From the NCBI GenBank assembly GCA_021846395.1, contig JAJZXB010000013.1:1-40013 (forward strand): a stretch of DNA of 40,013 bases. The letters are read 5' to 3'. The notes under the pieces are model-generated. The model saw nothing but the letters and a program-made list of their open reading frames with translations, searched no databases and was not told where the DNA came from. The stretch comes from Thermoplasmata archaeon. Its GTDB lineage: Archaea; Thermoplasmatota; Thermoplasmata; Thermoplasmatales; Thermoplasmataceae. The position numbers and the translations under genes were made by a program. Position 1 is the first letter of the stretch, and each line of letters starts with the position of its first letter. Shown here in pieces: positions 2,232 to 39,246 of this stretch.

Positions 2232-2275
2232 ATAATAAAGATGTAAATAAAGCTAATTGATAATGTTTAAATATT

Positions 2276-3487
2276 TTATTTCCTGTTTTTAAGATGCATT
2301 TGAATAACATCTGCAATGTCTTTAATATTCCCATTTCTTGAAAGGGAATAAAGGCATATTGGGCATGATGTCACAATATTTCCGGAAATATTCTTAAGTT
2401 GATTGTACCTTTCCGCGGAAATATTTTTTGAAATGTCCGGGAATAGCAGTTCGTCTGGGCCTCCACAGCAGTATGTTCTGCTTCCATTTCTCTCAGGATA
2501 GGAAACATTTCCCATGTTCTCAATAATTTCCCTTGCGTTGTTATATAGGTGTTCCCCCTGAAAATGGCAGGGATCATGGAAAGCAAAATATTCATTCGAT
2601 TTATACAACATATTTTTGTCAACCATATCCAGGTAATATATAACATTTAAATTGAAATCAGGAATGTATTTTGGATATTCGTATTTCAATAGATTGTATG
2701 TATGTGGATCAATGGTTATGATGTTTTGATATTTGCCCAGTATTTTATATATGCGCTTTATATATTCCCTGAACTCCACAATATACCCGTATTCATAAAG
2801 TAAACTCCCGGGATAGGGTTCCTCTTCCTCAAGAAGGTCGAATGAAACATCCGAACTTTTTAAAGCATATACTATATTTTTTAATGTTTTATTTGCCCTT
2901 TTCACCCCTGAAGGATCCGGCTTCAATAATTTTGTAATTCCTGGCATTGCTTCCGCAAGTGAAATTATAGCATAAAACAATCTTTTACCCATCTTTTTCC
3001 TGAGCCTTTCCAGATTTTCTGTGTAGGGCATTAACTGGTACATCAGGCCAGTATAAAGCAGTGTATCACATTTTTCTGCTTTCACATTATCATACCATGA
3101 ATAGGATTCATCCCTAAATATCAATGGCTTACTGTATTTCATTATATTCCTGACTATGGCCTTTGCCTCAGGTTTTTCATATTTTTTTACTGAAGATATG
3201 ATGGTTTTTGACAAATCGCTTATTCTTCCAGAATCAACTCCTGTTGGGCATACCTGCAAACATACATGGCATTCCAGGCAGGAATAAAATGTATCGGAAA
3301 CATTTATTCCAATATTTCCTGATTTTAATTCCTTAAAAAGGCTATAACCGATCTGTGCCCTTCCCCTTGAGGTTTTTGTCATATCATAGCCTGAAGTTTT
3401 ATAGGTTGGGCATACGGAATCACAGAACCCACAGCTGATGCATTTTGATGATTCCCTTTCAAGCTCATTTAACAGGTCATCAATCAT
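2276..3487 (-). CDS. Iron-sulfur subunit of a D-2-hydroxyacid dehydrogenase (GlcF/GlpC-like, CCG domains)
   Basis: Electron-accepting partner of the FAD protein encoded just upstream. The N-terminus has two 4Fe-4S motifs: CISCGFCDSVCP (Cys 16, 19, 22, 26) and CLECHVCLQVCP (Cys 70, 73, 76, 80). The C-terminal half holds the CCG-type region with HDPCH, CCGGPDE and CPICL motifs, as in heterodisulfide reductase B and glycolate oxidase GlcF subunits. I choose ATG at 3487: GGGTGG lies 5 bases before it, and it sits across the stop of the FAD gene (TGA 3480-3482). The longer frame back to 3505 would need a TTG start. Electrons probably pass from FADH2 to the quinone pool. Which hydroxyacid is used (glycolate, D-lactate, other) cannot be told from sequence. 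Confidence 0.85.
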   Translation of the reverse strand: MIDDLLNELERESSKCISCGFCDSVCPTYKTSGYDMTKTSRGRAQIGYSLFKELKSGNIGINVSDTFYSCLECHVCLQVCPTGVDSGRISDLSKTIISSVKKYEKPEAKAIVRNIMKYSKPLIFRDESYSWYDNVKAEKCDTLLYTGLMYQLMPYTENLERLRKKMGKRLFYAIISLAEAMPGITKLLKPDPSGVKRANKTLKNIVYALKSSDVSFDLLEEEEPYPGSLLYEYGYIVEFREYIKRIYKILGKYQNIITIDPHTYNLLKYEYPKYIPDFNLNVIYYLDMVDKNMLYKSNEYFAFHDPCHFQGEHLYNNAREIIENMGNVSYPERNGSRTYCCGGPDELLFPDISKNISAERYNQLKNISGNIVTSCPICLYSLSRNGNIKDIADVIQMHLKNRK

Positions 3488-20786: not shown

Positions 20787-22301
20787 TTATTCTATGTCCT
20801 CAAACTCAGAATTGTCAATAATACCCTCATCTTTTACCTTATTCATTAATTTCATTATTAGCGTTCCGATGCCGACCACAACCAAATTAAGTATTAGCGC
20901 AACTATTCCAACGTAGATAAAATTAAGGTTTTTATAAAGGGATGATGTGAAATTAAGCTGGACAAGCATTACAATTGTTGCGGTAAGTCCTACAGCCCAT
21001 CCAGCACCCACTGGATACTTGTTCAACTTCCTTGTAAATAATGCAAAGTACACTGCTGGCAGGGTCTGCATAATTATGGCGCCCCCTATAGTCTGAAGAT
21101 ATATGATCTCTCCAGAGGCTGCAGGCACCAGTGAAAAGATAAGTGCACCTATTATAACTACTATGACAAGTACCCTTGACAGGTTTGTCTGTGTTTTTTC
21201 ACTTGCTTTTGGGTTTATGTATTCAAGGTAAAGATTTCTTGTTAAAAGATTGGCCGATGCCAATGCCATAATTGATGCGGGCACAATGCTTCCAACAACA
21301 ACCGCGGCAAAGACAAATGCTGTGAATGTCGATGGAAATATTTTAAGCACCATAAGCGGGAGAGCCTCGCTTGATATTTTAAAAAGTGGGTTTTTTGGGC
21401 CAGCAAAACCGTTGAAATACACAACTGCCATTATTCCTACAAGTGCAACAAAGAGCAGTAATACATTGTATAAAGGCAATAATGAAGCGTTTCTTCTGAT
21501 TGTTTTTGAATCCTTGGCTCCAAGCGTTCCTGTTATTGCATGCGGATAAAGGAAAAGTGCCAGAGCAGAGCCAAGGGCAAGGGATGTATAGCCAACTTCA
21601 AGCACAGGGGGAATTGCCAAAAGGTTGGGGCTTATTGTCGAAGCATGGGAAAATATTGCTCCAAAACCTCCAAGCTTTATTGGAATGTATATTATTATTA
21701 CTATAATAGCTACCCATATTATTGCATCCTTAACTATTGCCGTTAATGCAGGACCCCTTAGTCCACTTACAAATGTAAATCCGGCCACAAGAAGGAATGC
21801 TATTATCAAACTAAGGGTTATTGGCAGAGACAAGGTGGCAAGAACGTACTTTATGCCCGTGATCTGCAATGCAATATAAGGCATTTCTGCAAGGACTCCG
21901 GTAAGTGCTATCAGAAGTGCAAGGAACCTTGATGAAAAACGATCCTTTACAAAATCCGCTGCTGTAATATACCCTCTCCTCTTTGATACATTCCAAAGCC
22001 TTGGCATTGTGCCATAAACTATTGGGTATATCATTATTCCATATGCAATTGCAAACATTGCAAATGATGCACCTGTAGCACTTGCGGCTAAACCGGGCAC
22101 TGCGATTAATGTATATGCTGTGTAAACATCCCCGCCAAGAAGGAACCACATAACCACAGTTCCAAAACGCCTTCCACCAACACTCCATTCCTCATGGCTA
22201 TCCATACTTTCTGGTTTTCTCCAAAAATAGGACAGATATCCAACCGAAAGAACGACGAATATTATTATGAAAAACAGTGCAATATCAAGATTTGTGAACA
22301 T
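20787..22301 (-). CDS. Sodium:solute symporter (SSS) family transporter
   Basis: About thirteen membrane helices over 504 aa, with SSS-type features such as WSVGGRRFGTVVMWFLLGGD (TM1-2 loop) and GLRGPALTAIVKDAIIWVAI. Likely takes up a carboxylate, proline-like solute or pantothenate using an ion gradient; in an acidophile this may be protons. A strong ribosome site (GGAGGG, 6-7 bases before ATG 22301) lies within the end of the DUF3311 gene, whose stop overlaps by 17 bases, so the two are coupled. The pairing of an SSS carrier with a tiny two-helix partner is widespread and suggests a two-subunit transporter. Confidence 0.86.
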   Translation of the reverse strand: MFTNLDIALFFIIIFVVLSVGYLSYFWRKPESMDSHEEWSVGGRRFGTVVMWFLLGGDVYTAYTLIAVPGLAASATGASFAMFAIAYGIMIYPIVYGTMPRLWNVSKRRGYITAADFVKDRFSSRFLALLIALTGVLAEMPYIALQITGIKYVLATLSLPITLSLIIAFLLVAGFTFVSGLRGPALTAIVKDAIIWVAIIVIIIYIPIKLGGFGAIFSHASTISPNLLAIPPVLEVGYTSLALGSALALFLYPHAITGTLGAKDSKTIRRNASLLPLYNVLLLFVALVGIMAVVYFNGFAGPKNPLFKISSEALPLMVLKIFPSTFTAFVFAAVVVGSIVPASIMALASANLLTRNLYLEYINPKASEKTQTNLSRVLVIVVIIGALIFSLVPAASGEIIYLQTIGGAIIMQTLPAVYFALFTRKLNKYPVGAGWAVGLTATIVMLVQLNFTSSLYKNLNFIYVGIVALILNLVVVGIGTLIMKLMNKVKDEGIIDNSEFEDIE

Positions 22302-25228: not shown

Positions 25229-28200
25229 ATTTCGAACCTTTATAAAAAGACTATAGACCTGCAGCTGGTGCCAGTATTGCTATTCCAACTGTTAAATTTC
25301 GAACCTTTATAAAAAGACTATAGACATACTTAGAGATATAGTTATACACATGTTTAACACTGATTTCAAACCTTTATAAAAAGACTATAGACTTTTGTAT
25401 GGGAAGGTAGCCATACGGTAAATGTATTATTTCAAACCTTTATAAAAAGACTATAGACTGGGATCGTTGTTCCCATATATTAGAAAATTATATATATTTC
25501 AAACCTTTATAAAAAGACTATAGACCTGTACCACCAAGCGATATTAAGAATTTTCCGGCAAAATTTCAAACCTTTATAAAAAGACTATAGACAAATATGA
25601 TTCAATCTATGAGGGATTTCAAGAACTTAATTTCAAACCTTTATAAAAAGACTATAGACATTTACAACAGTCAATGCCTTACGATATCGGTTCATATTTC
25701 AAACCTTTATAAAAAGACTATAGACATTTACAACAGTCAATGCCTTACGATATCGGTTCATATTTCAAACCTTTATAAAAAGACTATAGACAATAAAAGA
25801 GTGTGAGTTATATGAATGAAAATATAGAATTTCAAACCTTTATAAAAAGACTATAGACGGGTTAAACAATTGAGATACGGATCCCTCACTCATAAATTTC
25901 AAACCTTTATAAAAAGACTATAGACATTTTCCTATAAAAACCTTATAATCAATATAATTTTTATTTCAAACCTTTATAAAAAGACTATAGACGAGGAAAT
26001 AGTAATATGTGGCAATTGTAAAAAAGAAGTATTTCAAACCTTTATAAAAAGACTATAGACTCGTTTATTTTTTTCAGGTTATGCTTGGATATTTCATTAA
26101 TTTCAAACCTTTATAAAAAGACTATAGACTCTGAATGCAGAATGGGCAGAAATATGAATCTCTCAATTTCAAACCTTTATAAAAAGACTATAGACTTCCT
26201 TCATTTCTATTTTTATTTGCTTGGTTTCTCGAATTTCAAACCTTTATAAAAAGACTATAGACGTGAAATAAAGAATATTGTAAATAATACAAATCATTAT
26301 TTCAAACCTTTATAAAAAGACTATAGACTATGAGGATGAGGTTTTAAACGGTGATCGTGTATGAAATTTCAAACCTTTATAAAAAGACTATAGACAATCC
26401 TAAAATAAAATGTATTAGGATCATAAAAAATATTTCAAACCTTTATAAAAAGACTATAGACAAACAAGACTTAAAGGTTCGATGATGAAAGAACCAAATT
26501 TCAAACCTTTATAAAAAGACTATAGACATTCTATTGCTGAACCCCAAAAGAGTGGACAAAAAGAATTTCAAACCTTTATAAAAAGACTATAGACCAAAAG
26601 TTGGAGTATGGATATTATTTATATTCAGAATAATTTCAAACCTTTATAAAAAGACTATAGACTTGCTGAATTTTTTCACTGATAACTTTTCTTTTTGAGA
26701 TTTCAAACCTTTATAAAAAGACTATAGACTTGAAGGGCTTTTTCTGGCTGTCTTTTTTGTTGCCAATTTCAAACCTTTATAAAAAGACTATAGACGACTT
26801 TTATTTGTGGATTTTTATATTATGGGGTGAAATTTCAAACCTTTATAAAAAGACTATAGACAAATCAACAAGGAAAAAGAAGCGGAAATGAAGAGAAATT
26901 TCAAACCTTTATAAAAAGACTATAGACTTACTGACAGTAATTTTATGGTCTCTTTGTGTATGAATTTCAAACCTTTATAAAAAGACTATAGACTCCATTG
27001 TGTATGTTCCGCTGACTTGGATCACTTGGAATTTCAAACCTTTATAAAAAGACTATAGACATATATTATTCCTATTGGTCCATGCTATATTACAATGATT
27101 TCAAACCTTTATAAAAAGACTATAGACTCGTATCCGTCGTTGATGTCGTCATGAATTTTATTTAATTTCAAACCTTTATAAAAAGACTATAGACGGGCTA
27201 TATTTTTTGGGTAACGCCTGTAACATTCCCATATTTCAAACCTTTATAAAAAGACTATAGACCTGAATCAAAGGAAGAATAGTCTTTTTCCATGTATTAT
27301 TTCAAACCTTTATAAAAAGACTATAGACAAAACCGAATTTGGGAAAGGAATAATGGAATACTAATTTCAAACCTTTATAAAAAGACTATAGACTTTTTAA
27401 TTAATGGAAAATTCGCCATATTACTATATTATTTCAAACCTTTATAAAAAGACTATAGACTTATTTTAGGATATTTTGCCATATTACTATATTTAAATTT
27501 CAAACCTTTATAAAAAGACTATAGACAATTGTCTTTAATCAATAAAATGTTAGCACAATACCATTTCAAACCTTTATAAAAAGACTATAGACTTGGTCAT
27601 TTACAATTCCAATAATCGCAATTGAAAACGATTTCAAACCTTTATAAAAAGACTATAGACCAAACACGTCTGGAATAATTCCCTGGCAAACAACAAAATT
27701 TCAAACCTTTATAAAAAGACTATAGACATTAAATCGGGCATGAGTGAAATAGAAGAAAATCCAATTTCAAACCTTTATAAAAAGACTATAGACCAACTAA
27801 GAACATTATCGGCAATATTCCAGAAAACCGATTTCAAACCTTTATAAAAAGACTATAGACAATTATATTTTCTTTGTAATTCGTGTACTTTTTTATAATT
27901 TCAAACCTTTATAAAAAGACTATAGACTTTCCTGCAGATGTGAAATTATTTGCATAAATTGGGTATTTCAAACCTTTATAAAAAGACTATAGACTGGGAT
28001 GTTGAGGCCATATCAGGAGTTACAAAGACGAATTTCAAACCTTTATAAAAAGACTATAGACTTCTGGCTGTTCTTTTTCTTGTTGCCATTATAATATAAT
28101 TTCAAACCTTTATAAAAAGACTATAGACGTTGAATCCCTTATAGAAAAATCCCAATCCGTTTTGATTTCAAACCTTTATAAAAAGACTATAGACATAGAA

Positions 28201-32252: not shown

Positions 32253-32746
32253 GACCAGCAAAATTCATTATATGCACATTTGTTGCAAAATGCATTTTTC
32301 ACTGCAACCGGTATCTTTCCATTTCTTATTATATCTATATCAGAAATTGCATTAGTTAGTTCATTCACATTTTCATTATCAAGGTTTATCTCTATTACCT
32401 TATTTTCCTTTGGTATTTTTAACATGCCTTTTATATTAATATTTATATTCCCTCCTGAAATTTTATACAGGTAATATAAAAGTTGCATTTTAGATGCTTT
32501 TATGGATTTGCTGGATTTTTTAATTTCAATAACGATAGTCTTATTATCTTGAAATTCTATGGCATCAATTCTTGAATTTCCAATTTCTATCTCTTTTTTA
32601 TCTCTGTTGTATGATTCCGCATGTATTAATTTTCCTATAAGCATATTTTCATCGTCTTGGTCTGCTTCTATTGAATGGGAAAGCAACCATACTTCCCTTT
32701 TACAGATATAATAATACCATATAAGTGACCCATTAACTTCATTCAT
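32249..32746 (-). CDS. cas4: CRISPR adaptation nuclease Cas4
   Basis: RecB-type nuclease that trims prespacers and selects their PAM. The N-terminal Cys is in YYYICKREVWL; the nuclease core is IDAIEFQDNKTIVIEIKKSS (the Asp and the E-I-K motif); then QLLYYLYKI; the C-terminal Cys cluster NAFCNKCAYNEFCW completes the 4Fe-4S site. 165 aa is typical for I-B. GGAGG lies 10 bases before the ATG, and it overlaps cas3 by four bases. Confidence 0.94.
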   Translation of the reverse strand: MNEVNGSLIWYYYICKREVWLLSHSIEADQDDENMLIGKLIHAESYNRDKKEIEIGNSRIDAIEFQDNKTIVIEIKKSSKSIKASKMQLLYYLYKISGGNININIKGMLKIPKENKVIEINLDNENVNELTNAISDIDIIRNGKIPVAVKNAFCNKCAYNEFCWS

Positions 32747-35118
32747 ATGAATATAGCCTCCTTATCGTTATATTTTATCCCAGTTTCATTATCATATGCA
32801 TTCTTCAAGCAATTTTTGTGGATTATATAAAAATTATCTGAAACCTTAGACATATTTATAATTCCCATTTTATTAGCATATACAGATATTATATAGCCGT
32901 ATAATTCCTGCTTTAAATTTATTATATTATCACTATTAAAAGAACCATTTATCTTCAAAAGTGCATGATATTCATTAAATAATTCCTCTGCTTTCCCATC
33001 TTTTTCAACAAAAATGCTTATAGTTTTGCTTTTGTCTATAATACTGAAATTGGATATGTAGTCTTCTTCATTATCACCATTAAAATTAAGTTTTTCCATA
33101 GCTTTTTGCAATTGAGATGTGCCTTTTAGTTTGTTAGTGTTATAATATTTTCCGATCAATTCATTATATTCTCTTTCTTCTATTTTGTCCCTACCTTGTA
33201 ATATCTGTAAACTTCTTTCTGTGTGCAATTTTCCATAAATTAATTGGCAGTAATATGCATCTCCCTTATCATTAGGAGCACAGTTAACGACATAAATTTT
33301 GCCATTGTTTGATTCACCATTTCTATTCGTTCTGCCCGATGATTGAATCAGTGAATCTATTGGGGCCATGTCTCTGATAACAGCATCAAAACTTATATCT
33401 ATTCCTGCTTCAAATATCTGTGTTGATATTACACAGATATGCTCCTTATTTTTAATACCATTTCTTATCTGATCAAATCTTTCTTTTCTGTCATTTGGTA
33501 TTAGGTTGGATGATAGATAATATAATTTATACTGTAAATTCAGATCTTTTGCATATGTATATGCATCTATGGAGCTCTGAATCGTATTAAACATAAAAAG
33601 AACAGATTTATAATTGTATTTCATATATTTTTTAATAATTTCCCCAGGCTCTTTTTTTTCTAAATCGATAATCATTTGAACACGTGAAAGTTCATTAAAC
33701 ATTTGGCCAATATTTTTATTTAATTCCTTTGGCTTTTCAATAATATTTGGTTGTGTTGCTGTCATTACAATAAAATGAACATTGAATTCTTTTGCATATT
33801 TTTCTATTAGAAATTTTATATCCTGCCATTTTTCCATTGCTATACTTTGTATTTCATCCAGTATAATAATAGAATTATAAATTCTATAATATTTCTTTAG
33901 GCTTTTATTTTTCCACCCTGCAAAGGCATCAAAAATTTGGACAAATGTTGTGAATATAATTTCACTATCCCAATCTTCCGCAAGCATTAGGCTTACATAA
34001 AGTGGCATATCCTCATCGTTTATGCTTGCACTTAATATGCTTAAATGGTGGTGCTTCAAAATATATCTCTCACTATTACCTTTAAAATTCTGTAAGGAGG
34101 AAAAAATAGAATTTAAAACTTCATAATTTTGATCGACTAAAGTAGTAAATGGCATTGCGTATATTATTCTACTAATGAATTTATTGCTTTTATAAATTTG
34201 ATCTCTTAAAAATACTGCAGCTTTTAGCCCAGCTATTGTCTTTCCCGCTCCTGTTGGAGCTGTTATAGTAAAAATATGATCATTTTCTATATCAATTTTA
34301 CTAATTGAGTCTGAAACATTACGAAATAAATCCGTACGGATATTATCTATAGTTTTATTCTGATTATTTACGCGTAATTTCGCTTGAAACGAGTCGATTA
34401 GATCCCTATTAAAATCATTTTTTCTGCTTAATTGCTTCATTGAAGCTGCATTTCGTTTATCATTGTCTATCAGAGCTGAATATAAAAGTGTAAAGTCCAT
34501 ATATTTAAGATTCAATTTCTTATTTTTAGTTAAATTTCTTTTTGCTATCGATTTTAATTCACAGAAAAATTTATCAATTCCTAAATTTATAAAATTATGG
34601 ATATAATCCAGTTTGATTCCATTTTCTGATGCAAAAGCATAGATTGTATCCATATCTGCTTCTATATATTCCAAATTTTCTTTTATATCTTGCAGTTGAA
34701 TTTTTACATTTGATAAACTGTTAGAGTAATCCCTATTCGGGCCAATATTGTTTATATCTGTATCAAGATTGCACAAATTTCCATGATGGTGTTTTATAGA
34801 TAAATATGCATATAAAACGTACTCATCGGGTAATCCGTTTTCACGGGAGCAGTATGCAGCGTATAATGCTGATATCAAAGCATGTGATTTGTATTTATTT
34901 TTTTTATCTGATACCAGATATTTTTGAAAATACGATGTATATTTGCCAAAATCATGTAAACTTCCTATGATTAAAGCAAGTTTTTTTAAATTTTCATTAT
35001 TAATATTTAATTCACAGATAGATTTATATGAAAATTTTCCAACATCTAATAAATGGTCATGAAGAAGCCTGTACTTATCAGTTCCGTTTTCACACCATTT
35101 ATGAGCAAAAAAATTCAT
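32743..35118 (-). CDS. cas3: Cas3 HD nuclease-helicase
   Basis: Degrades DNA recruited by Cascade. The HD domain at the N-terminus is intact: LLHDHLLDV, LIGSLHDFGKYT and IKHHHGN. The helicase follows with Walker A APTGAGKTIAG, box II ILDEIQSIA, motif III VMTATQP, and motifs V and VI (STQIFEAGIDIS, LIQSSGRTNRNGE). I start at ATG 35118, preceded by AGAGGTTGAT at suitable spacing; the longer frame would need the TTG at 35139. About 791 aa, full length. It overlaps the end of cas5 by 20 bases. Confidence 0.95.
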   Translation of the reverse strand: MNFFAHKWCENGTDKYRLLHDHLLDVGKFSYKSICELNINNENLKKLALIIGSLHDFGKYTSYFQKYLVSDKKNKYKSHALISALYAAYCSRENGLPDEYVLYAYLSIKHHHGNLCNLDTDINNIGPNRDYSNSLSNVKIQLQDIKENLEYIEADMDTIYAFASENGIKLDYIHNFINLGIDKFFCELKSIAKRNLTKNKKLNLKYMDFTLLYSALIDNDKRNAASMKQLSRKNDFNRDLIDSFQAKLRVNNQNKTIDNIRTDLFRNVSDSISKIDIENDHIFTITAPTGAGKTIAGLKAAVFLRDQIYKSNKFISRIIYAMPFTTLVDQNYEVLNSIFSSLQNFKGNSERYILKHHHLSILSASINDEDMPLYVSLMLAEDWDSEIIFTTFVQIFDAFAGWKNKSLKKYYRIYNSIIILDEIQSIAMEKWQDIKFLIEKYAKEFNVHFIVMTATQPNIIEKPKELNKNIGQMFNELSRVQMIIDLEKKEPGEIIKKYMKYNYKSVLFMFNTIQSSIDAYTYAKDLNLQYKLYYLSSNLIPNDRKERFDQIRNGIKNKEHICVISTQIFEAGIDISFDAVIRDMAPIDSLIQSSGRTNRNGESNNGKIYVVNCAPNDKGDAYYCQLIYGKLHTERSLQILQGRDKIEEREYNELIGKYYNTNKLKGTSQLQKAMEKLNFNGDNEEDYISNFSIIDKSKTISIFVEKDGKAEELFNEYHALLKINGSFNSDNIINLKQELYGYIISVYANKMGIINMSKVSDNFYIIHKNCLKNAYDNETGIKYNDKEAIFI

Positions 35119-35872
35119 TGCTATCAACCTCTGGGACAAGCAACATTTCTTCTTTTTCTACATCATTTTCCCTATAGTTTACCTGCAAAACACTTTTGTC
35201 TGTATTTATCTTATAATAGTTATTATTTACGTCATATACATATTCACATGTTTTTGGATTACGGTTAGAGTCATAATTTACTGGTACTATTTCTTTTCTC
35301 AAGTTATTGTTTTCTAATTTTATTTTTTTGATAAATTTTGTTGGTGTTGGAAGTCTTACAGAAATAAGATTTTCTGAATAAATTTTCTTAATTTTAGCAT
35401 CATCTATATAATTCAGGCTTGCAATCATATTGGCAGTTCCAAGGGACACTGGAAATACTGGAATGTTATTTTTAATTTTTTGACTGAGATCGTCCATAAT
35501 TTCTTGAGTTGAGTGGAAAAAAATCCTATATACAATTTGATTTACAAAACTGTCTGGAATGATCATTTCATACGGTATTTGCGTATAATCGTACCCAGAT
35601 TTTGATAAATTTTTATAAAAATTATTGGAATCAACAATTTTCATATAATTTAGTGTTCCAATATACTTTCTTATTCTGGATTGTGTTGAAACTGCTATAA
35701 TTGCATGTTTCAAATTCAACATATCATAATATGAGTCAAAATCGTATCCTAAAATTGATGCTATTATTCCTTCTACTGTTGTTCTGGGTGGAAAATCATA
35801 ACTCAATGATGATGAATTGGAATAAAATTTCCTGAAATGAGCAAACTTTCCTTTTATATCAAATATAATCAT
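35099..35872 (-). CDS. cas5: Cascade subunit Cas5 (Cas5h/I-B type)
   Basis: 257 aa RAMP protein that binds the crRNA 5' handle. The N-terminal strand FDIKGKFAHFRKFYSNSSSL and the signature FPPRTTVEGIIASILGYD are those of the I-B Cas5. A few bases after cas7, without a clear ribosome site. Confidence 0.93.
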   Translation of the reverse strand: MIIFDIKGKFAHFRKFYSNSSSLSYDFPPRTTVEGIIASILGYDFDSYYDMLNLKHAIIAVSTQSRIRKYIGTLNYMKIVDSNNFYKNLSKSGYDYTQIPYEMIIPDSFVNQIVYRIFFHSTQEIMDDLSQKIKNNIPVFPVSLGTANMIASLNYIDDAKIKKIYSENLISVRLPTPTKFIKKIKLENNNLRKEIVPVNYDSNRNPKTCEYVYDVNNNYYKINTDKSVLQVNYRENDVEKEEMLLVPEVDSNEFFCS

Positions 35873-35877
35873 ATTTA

Positions 35878-36738
35878 TCAGAAATTTATATTGTTCGTGT
35901 TTAGCAAATTGCTTTTCCAGTATTTTCCTATTTGGATGTTTTTTGTCTCCAGTACATTTTTAAGAGCGGAAATATCAAGCGAGTAATCACTTATATTTCT
36001 TATTGGATTATTAATCGATTTTAGTTTTATATAATCCCTCATATCGCCAACATATTTATCGGATATTGTCCGGAGATAAAACAGCGGTGTTTGCCCTATT
36101 TTGCTTCTTGACGCCTGTTCGGGAATGGCATTTATGAGCGCGTCATCAAGCGCTTCCATGTCATTTTCAGACAAACCAGACTTTTCTGCACGTTTTCCAT
36201 TAATGATACCATAAAACGAGATTAATGAATAATATAAACGGTAATCTTTCCCAATTGAACTATTTTTATTTCCTATCTTACTTGCAAAACCACCAGTTAT
36301 TGAATATGAGTTCAACAGTTCAACCGCATTTAATGAATATCCCCAAGAAAATTGTACTGGCCCAACTATTTTTACTGAATCATTTGAATTGCCTGCATCC
36401 TTATCTCCCTTTATAGGTACCATTGCACCAAACATCCTTATATCAATGAAATCTTTAAGCCTTTCAAAGTCTTTTTTAAGATCTTTAATTCCAATGTTTT
36501 CCATTGATTCTGTAAGCCTTTCAGTAGCAGTTTGTACATTAGGGTCATGATTTATGAATATCTCCTTGCCCTGATCCAGCATATAGTCCCTTATATACCT
36601 TTTTAACCTTACATCGGAAACAAGGTTTGTTAAGGTCTGGTAATCCATTCTTGGCCTGTTCTCATCGTCAATATCTCCATTTGGGTTTGTTAATTTTGCT
36701 TCGTACGTAAAAATTATTTCTCCATTTTTTATACTCAT
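35878..36738 (-). CDS. cas7: Cascade backbone subunit Cas7 (Csh2 type)
   Basis: 286 aa, forms the crRNA-binding backbone. The Csh2 signature LTNPNGDIDDENRPRMD follows the first strand, then VRLKRYIRDYML and MFGAMVPIKGD; GPVQFSWGYSLN is also conserved. A strong GGAGGAG lies 6 bases before the ATG, and the start overlaps the cas8b stop (ATGA), so production may be boosted to the several copies needed per complex. Confidence 0.95.
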   Translation of the reverse strand: MSIKNGEIIFTYEAKLTNPNGDIDDENRPRMDYQTLTNLVSDVRLKRYIRDYMLDQGKEIFINHDPNVQTATERLTESMENIGIKDLKKDFERLKDFIDIRMFGAMVPIKGDKDAGNSNDSVKIVGPVQFSWGYSLNAVELLNSYSITGGFASKIGNKNSSIGKDYRLYYSLISFYGIINGKRAEKSGLSENDMEALDDALINAIPEQASRSKIGQTPLFYLRTISDKYVGDMRDYIKLKSINNPIRNISDYSLDISALKNVLETKNIQIGKYWKSNLLNTNNINF

Positions 36739-37121
36739 TTTATCTCCTCCTCGTTATTCTTTGCTCTGCTAAGGCTGTATCCAGTCATTATTAAAAAAAC
36801 ATTCTCGTCATCGCTCAACGGCCATTTCTCCTTGTTTACAATATATCTAGACAGTACTTCATGAAATATTTTAAGAGAATCTGGTAATTTTTTTGAGTGT
36901 ATATCGTATTGTTGAATCTTTTCATCTATAGCATTACCAAATCTGAAAATAGACCTAAAATTCATTCCCTGAAAGTTTATTTTGTCCAAAAGAGGATTTT
37001 TCCCAATTTCTTTGCTTGCATAGAGGTATTTCCCAATTTCCCCCATTGCAAACCCCATATTAAAAAGTGCTTCTTCTACATTACTGTAACCCATTTTTTC
37101 TTCGAATTCTTCATTTTCCAT
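36735..37121 (-). CDS. cas11: Predicted Cas11b small subunit from an internal start in cas8b
   Basis: ATG at 37121 is codon 462 of cas8b and in the same frame. Eight bases before it is an AAAGGAGG ribosome site (GGAGG at 37130-37134), as strong as those before cas7 and cas4. The product would be 128 aa (MENEEFEEKMGYSNVEEALF...), mostly helical, the size and place known for Cas11 in I-B, I-C and I-D systems, where the small subunit is made by internal translation of the cas8/cas10d gene. The codons under the site encode KEE, so chance cannot be excluded, but position, spacing and size all agree. Confidence 0.75.
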   Translation of the reverse strand: MENEEFEEKMGYSNVEEALFNMGFAMGEIGKYLYASKEIGKNPLLDKINFQGMNFRSIFRFGNAIDEKIQQYDIHSKKLPDSLKIFHEVLSRYIVNKEKWPLSDDENVFLIMTGYSLSRAKNNEEEIK

Positions 37122-38504
37122 ATTTTTTTCCTCCTTTATTGATTTTATTTCCCCTAAGAATTTTATATATGCATTTTGTTTTAATATATCTTTGTATACA
37201 AATTTTGATTTGCCACTATTAAAAAAATTTGAGGAGTTGTATTTATTGAATCTTTTAATTAATTCAGCCTTCTGGATTGGAGTAGCGGTAAAAATTCTTT
37301 TTACCATAGATATTGATTCTTTCGTATAAAGCGTTACCATCTTACGAAAATCTCCAATATTAAAATATTTATTGCTTTGTAACAAATCAGAGTAGTTGTT
37401 ATATGTGCGAACAAGTGCCCCGTCTATTTCTTTTATTCTGGATACCGGAATTTCGGTTATCATATCTATAATCTTGAAGGAACTATTATTGGGTATATAA
37501 AAGATTATATTTAAAAAATATTCATCTGGCCCAGTTATTGAAAGTGCATTATTTTCTAATTTTATAATTGAATCGATATTATTATTTATTGCCGAGTTTA
37601 CTAGTTTAAAAGCTTCTTTAATGTCAACTTTAATGTCAATATTTTTTTGAACAAACGGGATTTCTTCAGGTATTACCAGTATATTATATCCAAGATAGGT
37701 AGCCAAATTGTTTTTAATGAAATTTTCTCCGGAAATTATAGAATTATAACAATCTTTACACATTTGAAAATTTTTTGAGAAATCTTTAATATTTGATGCA
37801 AATGAATGTTTATCGGTATTATAGTATTTGTAAGATAATTTTTTGGTGTCGGAGGTGACCTTTGTTTTTTTGCCACAAATAAAGCAAATACCGTCATTAT
37901 AGATTAAGTCATCGAGAGAAAGTGAATTTAATAAGATTTCTTTATATTCATTATCATCTACAATTAAATTTCCATCTATGGATATGGTATATAACTTTAT
38001 GTTACTGTAAAAACCGTTTAAATCGGATGTCTGTTTTTTTAACTGATCTATAAGTTCACGTCTATACTCTTTTTTATTTGAGGCAACTTTAGTGAATTTT
38101 ATATTAGTATTATACTTTTTAGAATATATTTCAATAGAAACATCTTCAAAATTTATTTTGTCATCATAGTAATAATTCTCTACTATTTGTTTAAGTTTTT
38201 TAAAATTGTTCTTATATAATCTTGGCACCGCCTCAAATAGATAGCTTAAATTATCTGTAGTTGCATGCCATTGTGGAGTATTTGCTTTTAAATTTCCAAC
38301 CCATAAATATTCTTTTGAAAGTTCTTTGATGGATTGTTTATCAATTGGTTCTAATGTAATATGTATCACTTTATTATTTGTAGAAAAATCTACAGTAGCG
38401 ATAAAGTTTTCTTTTTTTCCTAGCTTTATATTTGAATACATATCGTCTGTAATGGTTCCAGCTGAGGACGCCTGTTCCCCTATTAATTTTATAGCACTTA
38501 TCAT
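36735..38504 (-). CDS. cas8b: Cascade large subunit Cas8b (Csh1-like)
   Basis: 589 aa, PAM-recognising large subunit of type I-B. It is poorly conserved as expected, but the central zinc-binding region is present: CFICGKK (Cys207, Cys210) and MCKDCYNS (Cys249, Cys252). The C-terminal 130 residues are helical and double as the small subunit. One base separates it from cas6, with a weak AGGGGTC before the ATG. The position between cas6 and cas7 is diagnostic. Confidence 0.92.
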   Translation of the reverse strand: MISAIKLIGEQASSAGTITDDMYSNIKLGKKENFIATVDFSTNNKVIHITLEPIDKQSIKELSKEYLWVGNLKANTPQWHATTDNLSYLFEAVPRLYKNNFKKLKQIVENYYYDDKINFEDVSIEIYSKKYNTNIKFTKVASNKKEYRRELIDQLKKQTSDLNGFYSNIKLYTISIDGNLIVDDNEYKEILLNSLSLDDLIYNDGICFICGKKTKVTSDTKKLSYKYYNTDKHSFASNIKDFSKNFQMCKDCYNSIISGENFIKNNLATYLGYNILVIPEEIPFVQKNIDIKVDIKEAFKLVNSAINNNIDSIIKLENNALSITGPDEYFLNIIFYIPNNSSFKIIDMITEIPVSRIKEIDGALVRTYNNYSDLLQSNKYFNIGDFRKMVTLYTKESISMVKRIFTATPIQKAELIKRFNKYNSSNFFNSGKSKFVYKDILKQNAYIKFLGEIKSIKEEKNMENEEFEEKMGYSNVEEALFNMGFAMGEIGKYLYASKEIGKNPLLDKINFQGMNFRSIFRFGNAIDEKIQQYDIHSKKLPDSLKIFHEVLSRYIVNKEKWPLSDDENVFLIMTGYSLSRAKNNEEEIK

Positions 38505-38505
38505 T

Positions 38506-39246
38506 TTAGACCCCTAAAATTTTTATACATCCAAATCCCTCTGAATTCTTTGAACCTATCCCTGCATAATAAATTAGCTTCATAATAGAGGGGTCAGCTT
38601 CTATTGTGAATAAGCCGTTAAAACATTTTATAAAGGTATCTTTAAAATACACAATTTTTTCATCATGCTTATTTTTTATATTATTGGGTCTTATATGAAA
38701 ATTCATTATTTTCATACCATTACCATTGATAGCTTTTAATTTGGTTTCAATATTTGATTTAATTAACTTTTCAAATTCATTACTCCATGGATCATAATAT
38801 ATTCTCTTTTTATCTTCAGATCTAAATACTGTTAAAGGTGATAACATTTCAATCATGTAATGTCTACTATTAGTATAATGATCATCATTAAAAAGTTCAG
38901 ATTTAATATCCATAACTTGTAACTTCATACCGTTGATGTAAAGGTTTTCATCAGTTAAAATGTTATATGCAATCTCTGATACAAGTTCATCATCATAAGC
39001 GGAAAAAATTATATTTATAGGTGAATTAAATAAAATATTTTTGTTTTCCATTTTGAATTTACCAAAAATTTTTGAGAAAGTCATAAGTTTTATTTTTTTG
39101 GGACCTACCATATAACCATAATCGTGAAGTCTAACCCTTTCTTTAACGTCAGAAATATGAGAATAAAAGAAGGCTTGTATGAGATTATTATAATTAACTG
39201 GCAGTGTTAAAATTCCTGAAAACGTAAACTTTATGTTAATTCTCAC
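38506..39246 (-). CDS. cas6: CRISPR repeat endonuclease Cas6
   Basis: 246 aa RAMP protein that cuts the precursor within each repeat, leaving the 8-base handle. The first strand is INIKFTFSGILTLPVNYNNL; the Gly-rich loop near the C-terminus is GIGSKNSEGFGCIKI, diagnostic of Cas6. First gene of the operon. The start is GTG at 39246; an ATG two bases earlier is out of frame. It has no ribosome site, and a TATA box 28 bases upstream fits a leaderless start. Confidence 0.93.
   Translation of the reverse strand: MRINIKFTFSGILTLPVNYNNLIQAFFYSHISDVKERVRLHDYGYMVGPKKIKLMTFSKIFGKFKMENKNILFNSPINIIFSAYDDELVSEIAYNILTDENLYINGMKLQVMDIKSELFNDDHYTNSRHYMIEMLSPLTVFRSEDKKRIYYDPWSNEFEKLIKSNIETKLKAINGNGMKIMNFHIRPNNIKNKHDEKIVYFKDTFIKCFNGLFTIEADPSIMKLIYYAGIGSKNSEGFGCIKILGV

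Follow-up and report, generated by a model that had tools for sequence, protein, structure and literature searches.

Introduction

Translation of the small subunit Cas11 from within the large-subunit gene has been reported as widespread in CRISPR (clustered regularly interspaced short palindromic repeats) types I-B, I-C and I-D (McBride et al., 2020, as cited in PMC10212523, PMC7684278 and PMC11899642), the founding case being Cas11d inside cas10d of type I-D (McBride et al., 2020, as cited in PMC10212523 and PMC7684278). This study concerns a putative case of the same kind in the cas8b gene of a type I-B locus on contig JAJZXB010000013.1 (assembly GCA_021846395.1), of which positions 1 to 40,013, hereafter the window, were analysed. 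The source genome is a 1.66-Mb draft, 97% complete, from a Thermoplasmatota archaeon. A preliminary description of this DNA had taken internal Cas11 translation as established for these three types, in agreement with the papers cited above. In type I-D the large subunit is Cas10d, compared with Cas8b here.

In Haloferax volcanii, an archaeon with a type I-B system, Cas11b has been experimentally shown to come from an internal start, Met545, of cas8b, and the M545A exchange removes it (Sailer et al., 2025, PMC11899642); that paper also describes Cas11b as required for effective interference. Both archaeal type I-B loci have an in-frame start inside cas8b and no separate cas11 gene. Haloferax, however, uses a weak GGATG and makes a larger, acidic product (25.5 kDa calculated), whereas the present locus has a full GGAGG and a predicted 15.0-kDa product. 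With its full canonical Shine-Dalgarno (SD) sequence, this lineage could be a clearer archaeal example of internal initiation than Haloferax with its weak SD. Given the Haloferax work, what is new in the archaeal acidophile case proposed by the preliminary description is restricted to its acidophile, or Thermoplasmatota, setting.

Among bacteria, the I-B1 system of Thermotoga maritima shares with this locus a TM1802-family Cas8b (PF09484; T. maritima was matched in a control search) and a Cas11 of about 15 kDa. There a 15.1-kDa Cas11 from the 3' end of cas8b was supplied as a separate gene, Cas8b1 was purified with the effector complex Cascade (CRISPR-associated complex for antiviral defence) only when Cas11 was supplied, and the putative internal site failed in E. 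coli (PMC13199841). In type I-C of Desulfovibrio vulgaris, an internal ribosome-binding site in cas8c gives a separate Cas11 that corresponds to the C-terminus of Cas8c (O'Brien et al., 2020, PMC7684278); the large-subunit fold matches that of the present Cas8b, although the subtype differs and there is no detectable sequence similarity to the solved chains. The type I-B Cascade of Synechocystis PCC 6714 (8H67) contains seven Cas7, three Cas11 and one each of Cas8, Cas5 and Cas6, and its Cas11b and Cas8b C-terminus form a belly that supports the non-target strand (PMC11096372). Its cas8b also has an internal ribosome-binding site, while the organism is a bacterium and the protein belongs to the Myxan/Cmx8 branch and not to the TM1802 branch found here. 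In the literature on Thermoplasmatales with Cas8b no earlier description was found, the matching papers dealing, by their titles and abstracts, with other matters. The site described below is a convincing new case of an arrangement known from bacteria and one archaeon.

The predicted internal start of cas8b

The cas8b gene probably has, with a likelihood that we put at about 93%, an additional ribosome-binding site, followed by a start codon, at the Cas8b/Cas11 junction, from which Cas11b would be made separately. The features concerned are as follows.

36735..38504, minus strand: cas8b (TM1802/Csh1 family), 589 aa, type I-B Cascade large subunit; PF09484 257.8 bits (cut-off 25.1), TIGR02591 110 bits (cut-off 104)
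37130..37137, minus strand: internal SD sequence AAAGGAGG, with GGAGG at 37130-37134, ending 8 nt before the ATG; predicted duplex -10.0 kcal/mol
36735..37121, minus strand: predicted cas11b, in frame within cas8b, 128 aa, 15.0 kDa; its ATG at 37121 is codon 462 of 589

The minus strand around the internal start reads ...AATAAAGGAGGAAAAAAATATGGAAAATGAA.... The 3' end of the 16S rRNA of this genome carries the matching anti-SD GGATCACCTCC, and AAAGGAGG is therefore a full GGAGG match to it. The RNA around 37121 is A-rich and predicted to be unfolded (minimum free energy, MFE, 0), and the SD there is stronger than that of the start of cas8b itself at 38504 (-7.3 kcal/mol), which lies within a hairpin (MFE -5.8). 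The region so delimited aligns with positions 494-601 of PF09484. The later in-frame starts, codons 471, 483 and 487, have weaker duplexes (-0.3, -0.3 and -5.9 kcal/mol, respectively), and codon 462 was therefore preferred. The SD sequence, 8-nt spacer, in-frame ATG at codon 462 and 128-aa product of the preliminary description proved exact, and the helical nature it gave to the product is an AlphaFold2 prediction (see below).

A profile search of the 97%-complete genome for a standalone cas11-like gene matched this place only, although such a search would miss a Cas11 of an unrelated sequence family. A single open reading frame (ORF) call would overlook the predicted Cas11b, and reconstitution of this Cascade would probably need separate Cas11b expression, as in the T. 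maritima work.

Conservation at the Cas8b/Cas11 junction

PF09484-type cas8b genes were collected from Thermoplasmatota genomes (named Thermoplasmatales and DHVE2) and from named archaeal and bacterial contigs, leaving 30 once duplicates and split genes were removed. A contig scan with the window Cas8b protein alone gave no relatives; a scan with four closer archaeal sequences, aligned, was successful. In each gene a Cas11 profile served to locate where the C-terminal domain begins, and each in-frame ATG, GTG or TTG codon near that point was given a score for how well the stretch from -18 to -4 pairs with the anti-SD. The taxonomy of some matches to metagenome-assembled genomes (e.g., Bacteroidales L047 and Levybacteria L051) may reflect mis-binning or horizontal transfer, which leaves the junction test unaffected.

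In 25 of the 30 homologues, archaeal and bacterial, the strongest in-frame SD and start lie at the junction, which thereby ranks first among some 22 zones of equal width in the gene. At a cut-off of -8.4 kcal/mol it passes in 25/30 genes compared with 13/664 other zones (Fisher p ~1.6e-31), a p-value which, like all those for the full set, overstates independence because the genes are related; the fairer figure is that for the 12 genes below 40% mutual identity, where the junction passes in 9/12 and other zones in 7/273 (p ~8e-11). Synonymous shuffles combined over the homologues also reject chance given the amino-acid sequences (Fisher p 5e-9, the genes not being fully independent). Each of the ten Thermoplasmatota homologues whose 3' half is intact, L044 being set apart, has an SD-like junction site, nine of them at or below -8.5 kcal/mol and one at -7.7.

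The homologues draw on different parts of the anti-SD complement: AAAGGTGAT in L002, GGAGGTAA in L003, CAGGTGAT in L004, AGAGGTGAG in L007, GAAGGTGA in L008, AGAGGTGAA in L009, GGGAGGG in L010, AGAGAGGTGAG in L011 and GAAGGAGGG in L042. The linker peptides encoded by these stretches vary likewise (K-E-E, K-G-D, G-G, E-V and R-G-E), and the internal start codon is GTG in L042, L050 and L060 and TTG in L058. Since the anti-SD segments vary and the start is GTG or TTG in four homologues, what is conserved is initiation and not a methionine. The check proposed in the preliminary description, that the ribosome site and ATG be kept in relatives, is thus borne out for the site, while the ATG itself is replaced in those four genes.

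Naturally split cas8b genes

Two relatives were found in which the predicted product is a separate ORF. In L040 (G153:C4:62000-68500), cas8b is split and cas11b lies apart at 2570-2986 on the minus strand (139 aa), with its own SD and with cas7 downstream of it. The large subunit there ends in ...LIKEGE* and the junction reads AAAGAAGGTGAGTAGTATGGAAAAACAA, the TAG standing 1-2 nt before the ATG in another frame. The genome of L040 carries a further type I-B cas8b, L008, which is unsplit and has an internal SD. The second split, at the same junction, is in Candidatus Altarchaeum GA_1_1 (L054, JAGTWP010000011.1, about 2270-2740, plus strand), where cas8b ends in ATATGA and overlaps, by an ATGA stop-start, a separate Cas11b ORF of about 155 aa with no SD; in L048, of 83% DNA identity to L054, cas8b is one continuous ORF.

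Three broken cas8b genes were met in all, and the break falls exactly at the junction in two. The third, L011 (G267), has its frame break near residue 211, in the N-terminal half; it was put down to decay or sequencing error and rejected as a fission. A search of the order around G153 added no further split loci. The split loci come from metagenome or draft assemblies, so that sequencing error is possible at any single locus, but error would hardly produce two pairs of complete ORFs that both meet precisely where Cas11 begins.

We lean slightly towards the view that the small subunit of TM1802-type Cas8b alternates between a gene within a gene and two genes, with at least two independent splits at the internal start, one in a Thermoplasmatota relative and one in Altarchaeum. 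If this is so, Cas11 supply in archaea would be tunable through SD strength, start codon or stop-start coupling. No account of naturally split cas8b/cas11b loci was found in the literature, searched mostly without subscription journals. The natural fissions are the freshest element of the finding, a modest addition to it, and these relatives offer ready tests of whether both products need one gene.

The split genes also bear on a reading in which the internal SD causes no initiation and instead pauses elongating ribosomes, helping the C-terminal bundle to fold during translation. Its position exactly at the domain boundary would suit such a role. Pausing, however, needs no in-frame start at SD spacing, yet the strong sites have an ATG, GTG or TTG there, and it leaves the separate ORFs of the two relatives unexplained; we consider this explanation barely credible.

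Predicted structure

The 128-aa product was predicted by AlphaFold2 to form six helices, with a predicted local distance difference test (pLDDT) score of 85.8 and a predicted template modelling (pTM) score of 0.81. In the model of full-length Cas8b (pLDDT 78), residues 459-464, which include Met462, form one of five short stretches below 50, and in this model they are a flexible linker that joins the Cas8b core to the C-terminal helical bundle. The full-length model matches the large-subunit chains (Cas8c) of type I-C Cascade, with nine matches at E-values of 6.4e-9 to 2.6e-4. When the Cas11b or Cas8b alignments were used as profiles against PDB sequences, nothing relevant was found.

A flexible linker near residue 462 is also what would be expected if the small subunit were released by proteolysis of Cas8b instead of by internal initiation, and a short Cas8b fragment seen in Clostridium thermocellum and in Methanococcus maripaludis was formerly ascribed to cleavage (as quoted in PMC11899642). 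Proteolysis, however, provides no selection for an SD and a start codon and no room for split genes, and in Haloferax the change of Met545 abolishes Cas11b (PMC11899642). Cleavage is thus a very improbable source of the small subunit.

Weighing of the internal site against chance

Several observations weigh against separate translation of Cas11b. Taken alone, the site is unusual only moderately: of the 1,328 internal in-frame ATGs within the 271 ORFs called from 340 kb of the genome, 13 reach -10 kcal/mol or lower (~1%, about one per 21 ORFs), and synonymous-codon shuffles of this cas8b match or beat the junction site in 3.1% of cases (p = 0.031). Five of the 30 homologues are weak at the junction or lack a site there, namely L005 (-7.7), L052 (-6.6), L064 (-6.3), L044 and L048; no SD was found at the junction of L044, a haloarchaeal-type sequence, or of the Altarchaeum L048, haloarchaea being described as SD-poor (PMC11899642). 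The zone limits and the cut-off used above were chosen with the sites already seen, and the rank result, free of the cut-off, uses the same zones. Finally, when the isolated bundle was submitted to Foldseek, the top four PDB matches were type I-C Cascade chains, at non-significant E-values of 0.8-2.6.

The genome-wide rate, the shuffles and the two homologues without an SD all speak for a rival reading, in which the site arose by chance from a linker rich in Lys and Glu (K-E-E, encoded as AAG GAG GAA) of an A-rich genome; full-length Cas8b would then be the sole product, with the bundle fused to it. Against this, the junction is the best site in 25/30 homologues, from differing peptides and anti-SD segments, and in two relatives the product has an ORF of its own; a chance origin is in our view quite improbable. 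SD strength as a sole criterion was dropped, since 13/1,328 internal ATGs are equally strong. The preliminary description had argued that strong sites in the window stand only before true genes. This holds for ORFs of at least 100 aa, where a GGAGG 4-11 nt upstream of the start occurs only at the present site, at cas7 and cas4, and at the ORFs at 22301 (504 aa, its SSS carrier) and 8660 (282 aa, TTG start, its prpB), yet genome-wide the argument is a weak one. It is the comparative data, and not the single site, that carry the predicted internal start beyond chance. The separate Cas11b predicted in the preliminary description is supported by the junction conservation and by the separate ORFs.

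Proposed mechanism

One operon mRNA would be transcribed from upstream of cas6. Initiation at 38504 would yield full-length Cas8b, present once in each complex, whereas ribosomes binding AAAGGAGG and starting at 37121 would yield the C-terminal 128-aa helical bundle alone, as Cas11b. By homology with the described systems, two or three Cas11b copies may then join the Cas8b C-terminus in lining the type I-B Cascade belly, where they would support the non-target DNA strand of the R-loop. Over the effector operon (window 35842-39246, minus strand) the SD duplexes are -11.5 kcal/mol for cas7, -10.0 for cas11b, -7.3 for cas8b, -2.3 for cas5 and -2.2 for cas6, an order that, in this one operon, appears to parallel the Cascade stoichiometry of Synechocystis I-B.

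The type I-B locus

The locus lies on the minus strand of the window in the order cas6, cas8b, cas7, cas5, cas3, cas4, cas1 and a likely cas2, followed by the array. The features not listed above are as follows.

38506..39246, minus strand: cas6, first gene of the operon; TIGR01877 127 bits
35878..36738, minus strand: cas7 (Csh2); TIGR02590 199.5 bits; own strong SD, -11.5 kcal/mol
35099..35872, minus strand: cas5; TIGR02593 42.2 bits (cut-off 17.8)
32743..35118, minus strand: cas3 (HD and helicase); TIGR01587 155.7 bits, TIGR01596 77.1 bits
32249-32746, minus strand: cas4; TIGR00372 96.4 bits
31239-32261, minus strand: cas1; TIGR03641 (Cas1b) 392.1 bits
25226..30700, no strand assigned: CRISPR array, in which a 30-nt repeat family recurs about 83 times with a period of 66-67 nt; the right end is an estimate based on copy number and spacing

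The type I-B assignment is based on Cas8b, Cas7, Cas6, Cas3, Cas1b and Cas4, all above curated cut-offs, and on the presence of the array. Two further models were narrowly missed, TIGR02556 by cas8b (132.2 bits, just under the cut-off of 156.95) and the cas5h model TIGR02592 by cas5 (87.7 bits, just under 97), the general Cas5 model being passed. The start of cas7 overlaps the 3' end of cas8b/cas11b. For cas3, the ATG at 35118 (SD CAGAGGTTGATAGCAATG, -9.3 kcal/mol) is a better start than the TTG at 35139 given in the ORF list, which has no SD (-0.2). The ORF near cas1 is likely to be cas2, judging from position and size only. Two identical adjacent spacers (ATTTACAACAGTCAATGCC...) in the array, at window 25630-25760, represent a spacer-repeat duplication.

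Other internal sites in the genome

Strong in-frame internal SD and ATG combinations were also seen in other genes of this genome. In a TnpB/IS605 OrfB gene (L024, 3099-4358, minus strand; G000 contig 5) the site (AATAGGAGGAATAATG) is at codon 314 of 420, directly preceding the zinc-ribbon/TNB domain, and would yield a 107-aa product. The others, which may be real or due to chance, are at codon 319 of a class I tRNA synthetase (W/Y) gene (L023, 3094-4392, plus strand) and at codon 303 of a GT20 glycosyltransferase gene (L030, 18180-19487, minus strand).
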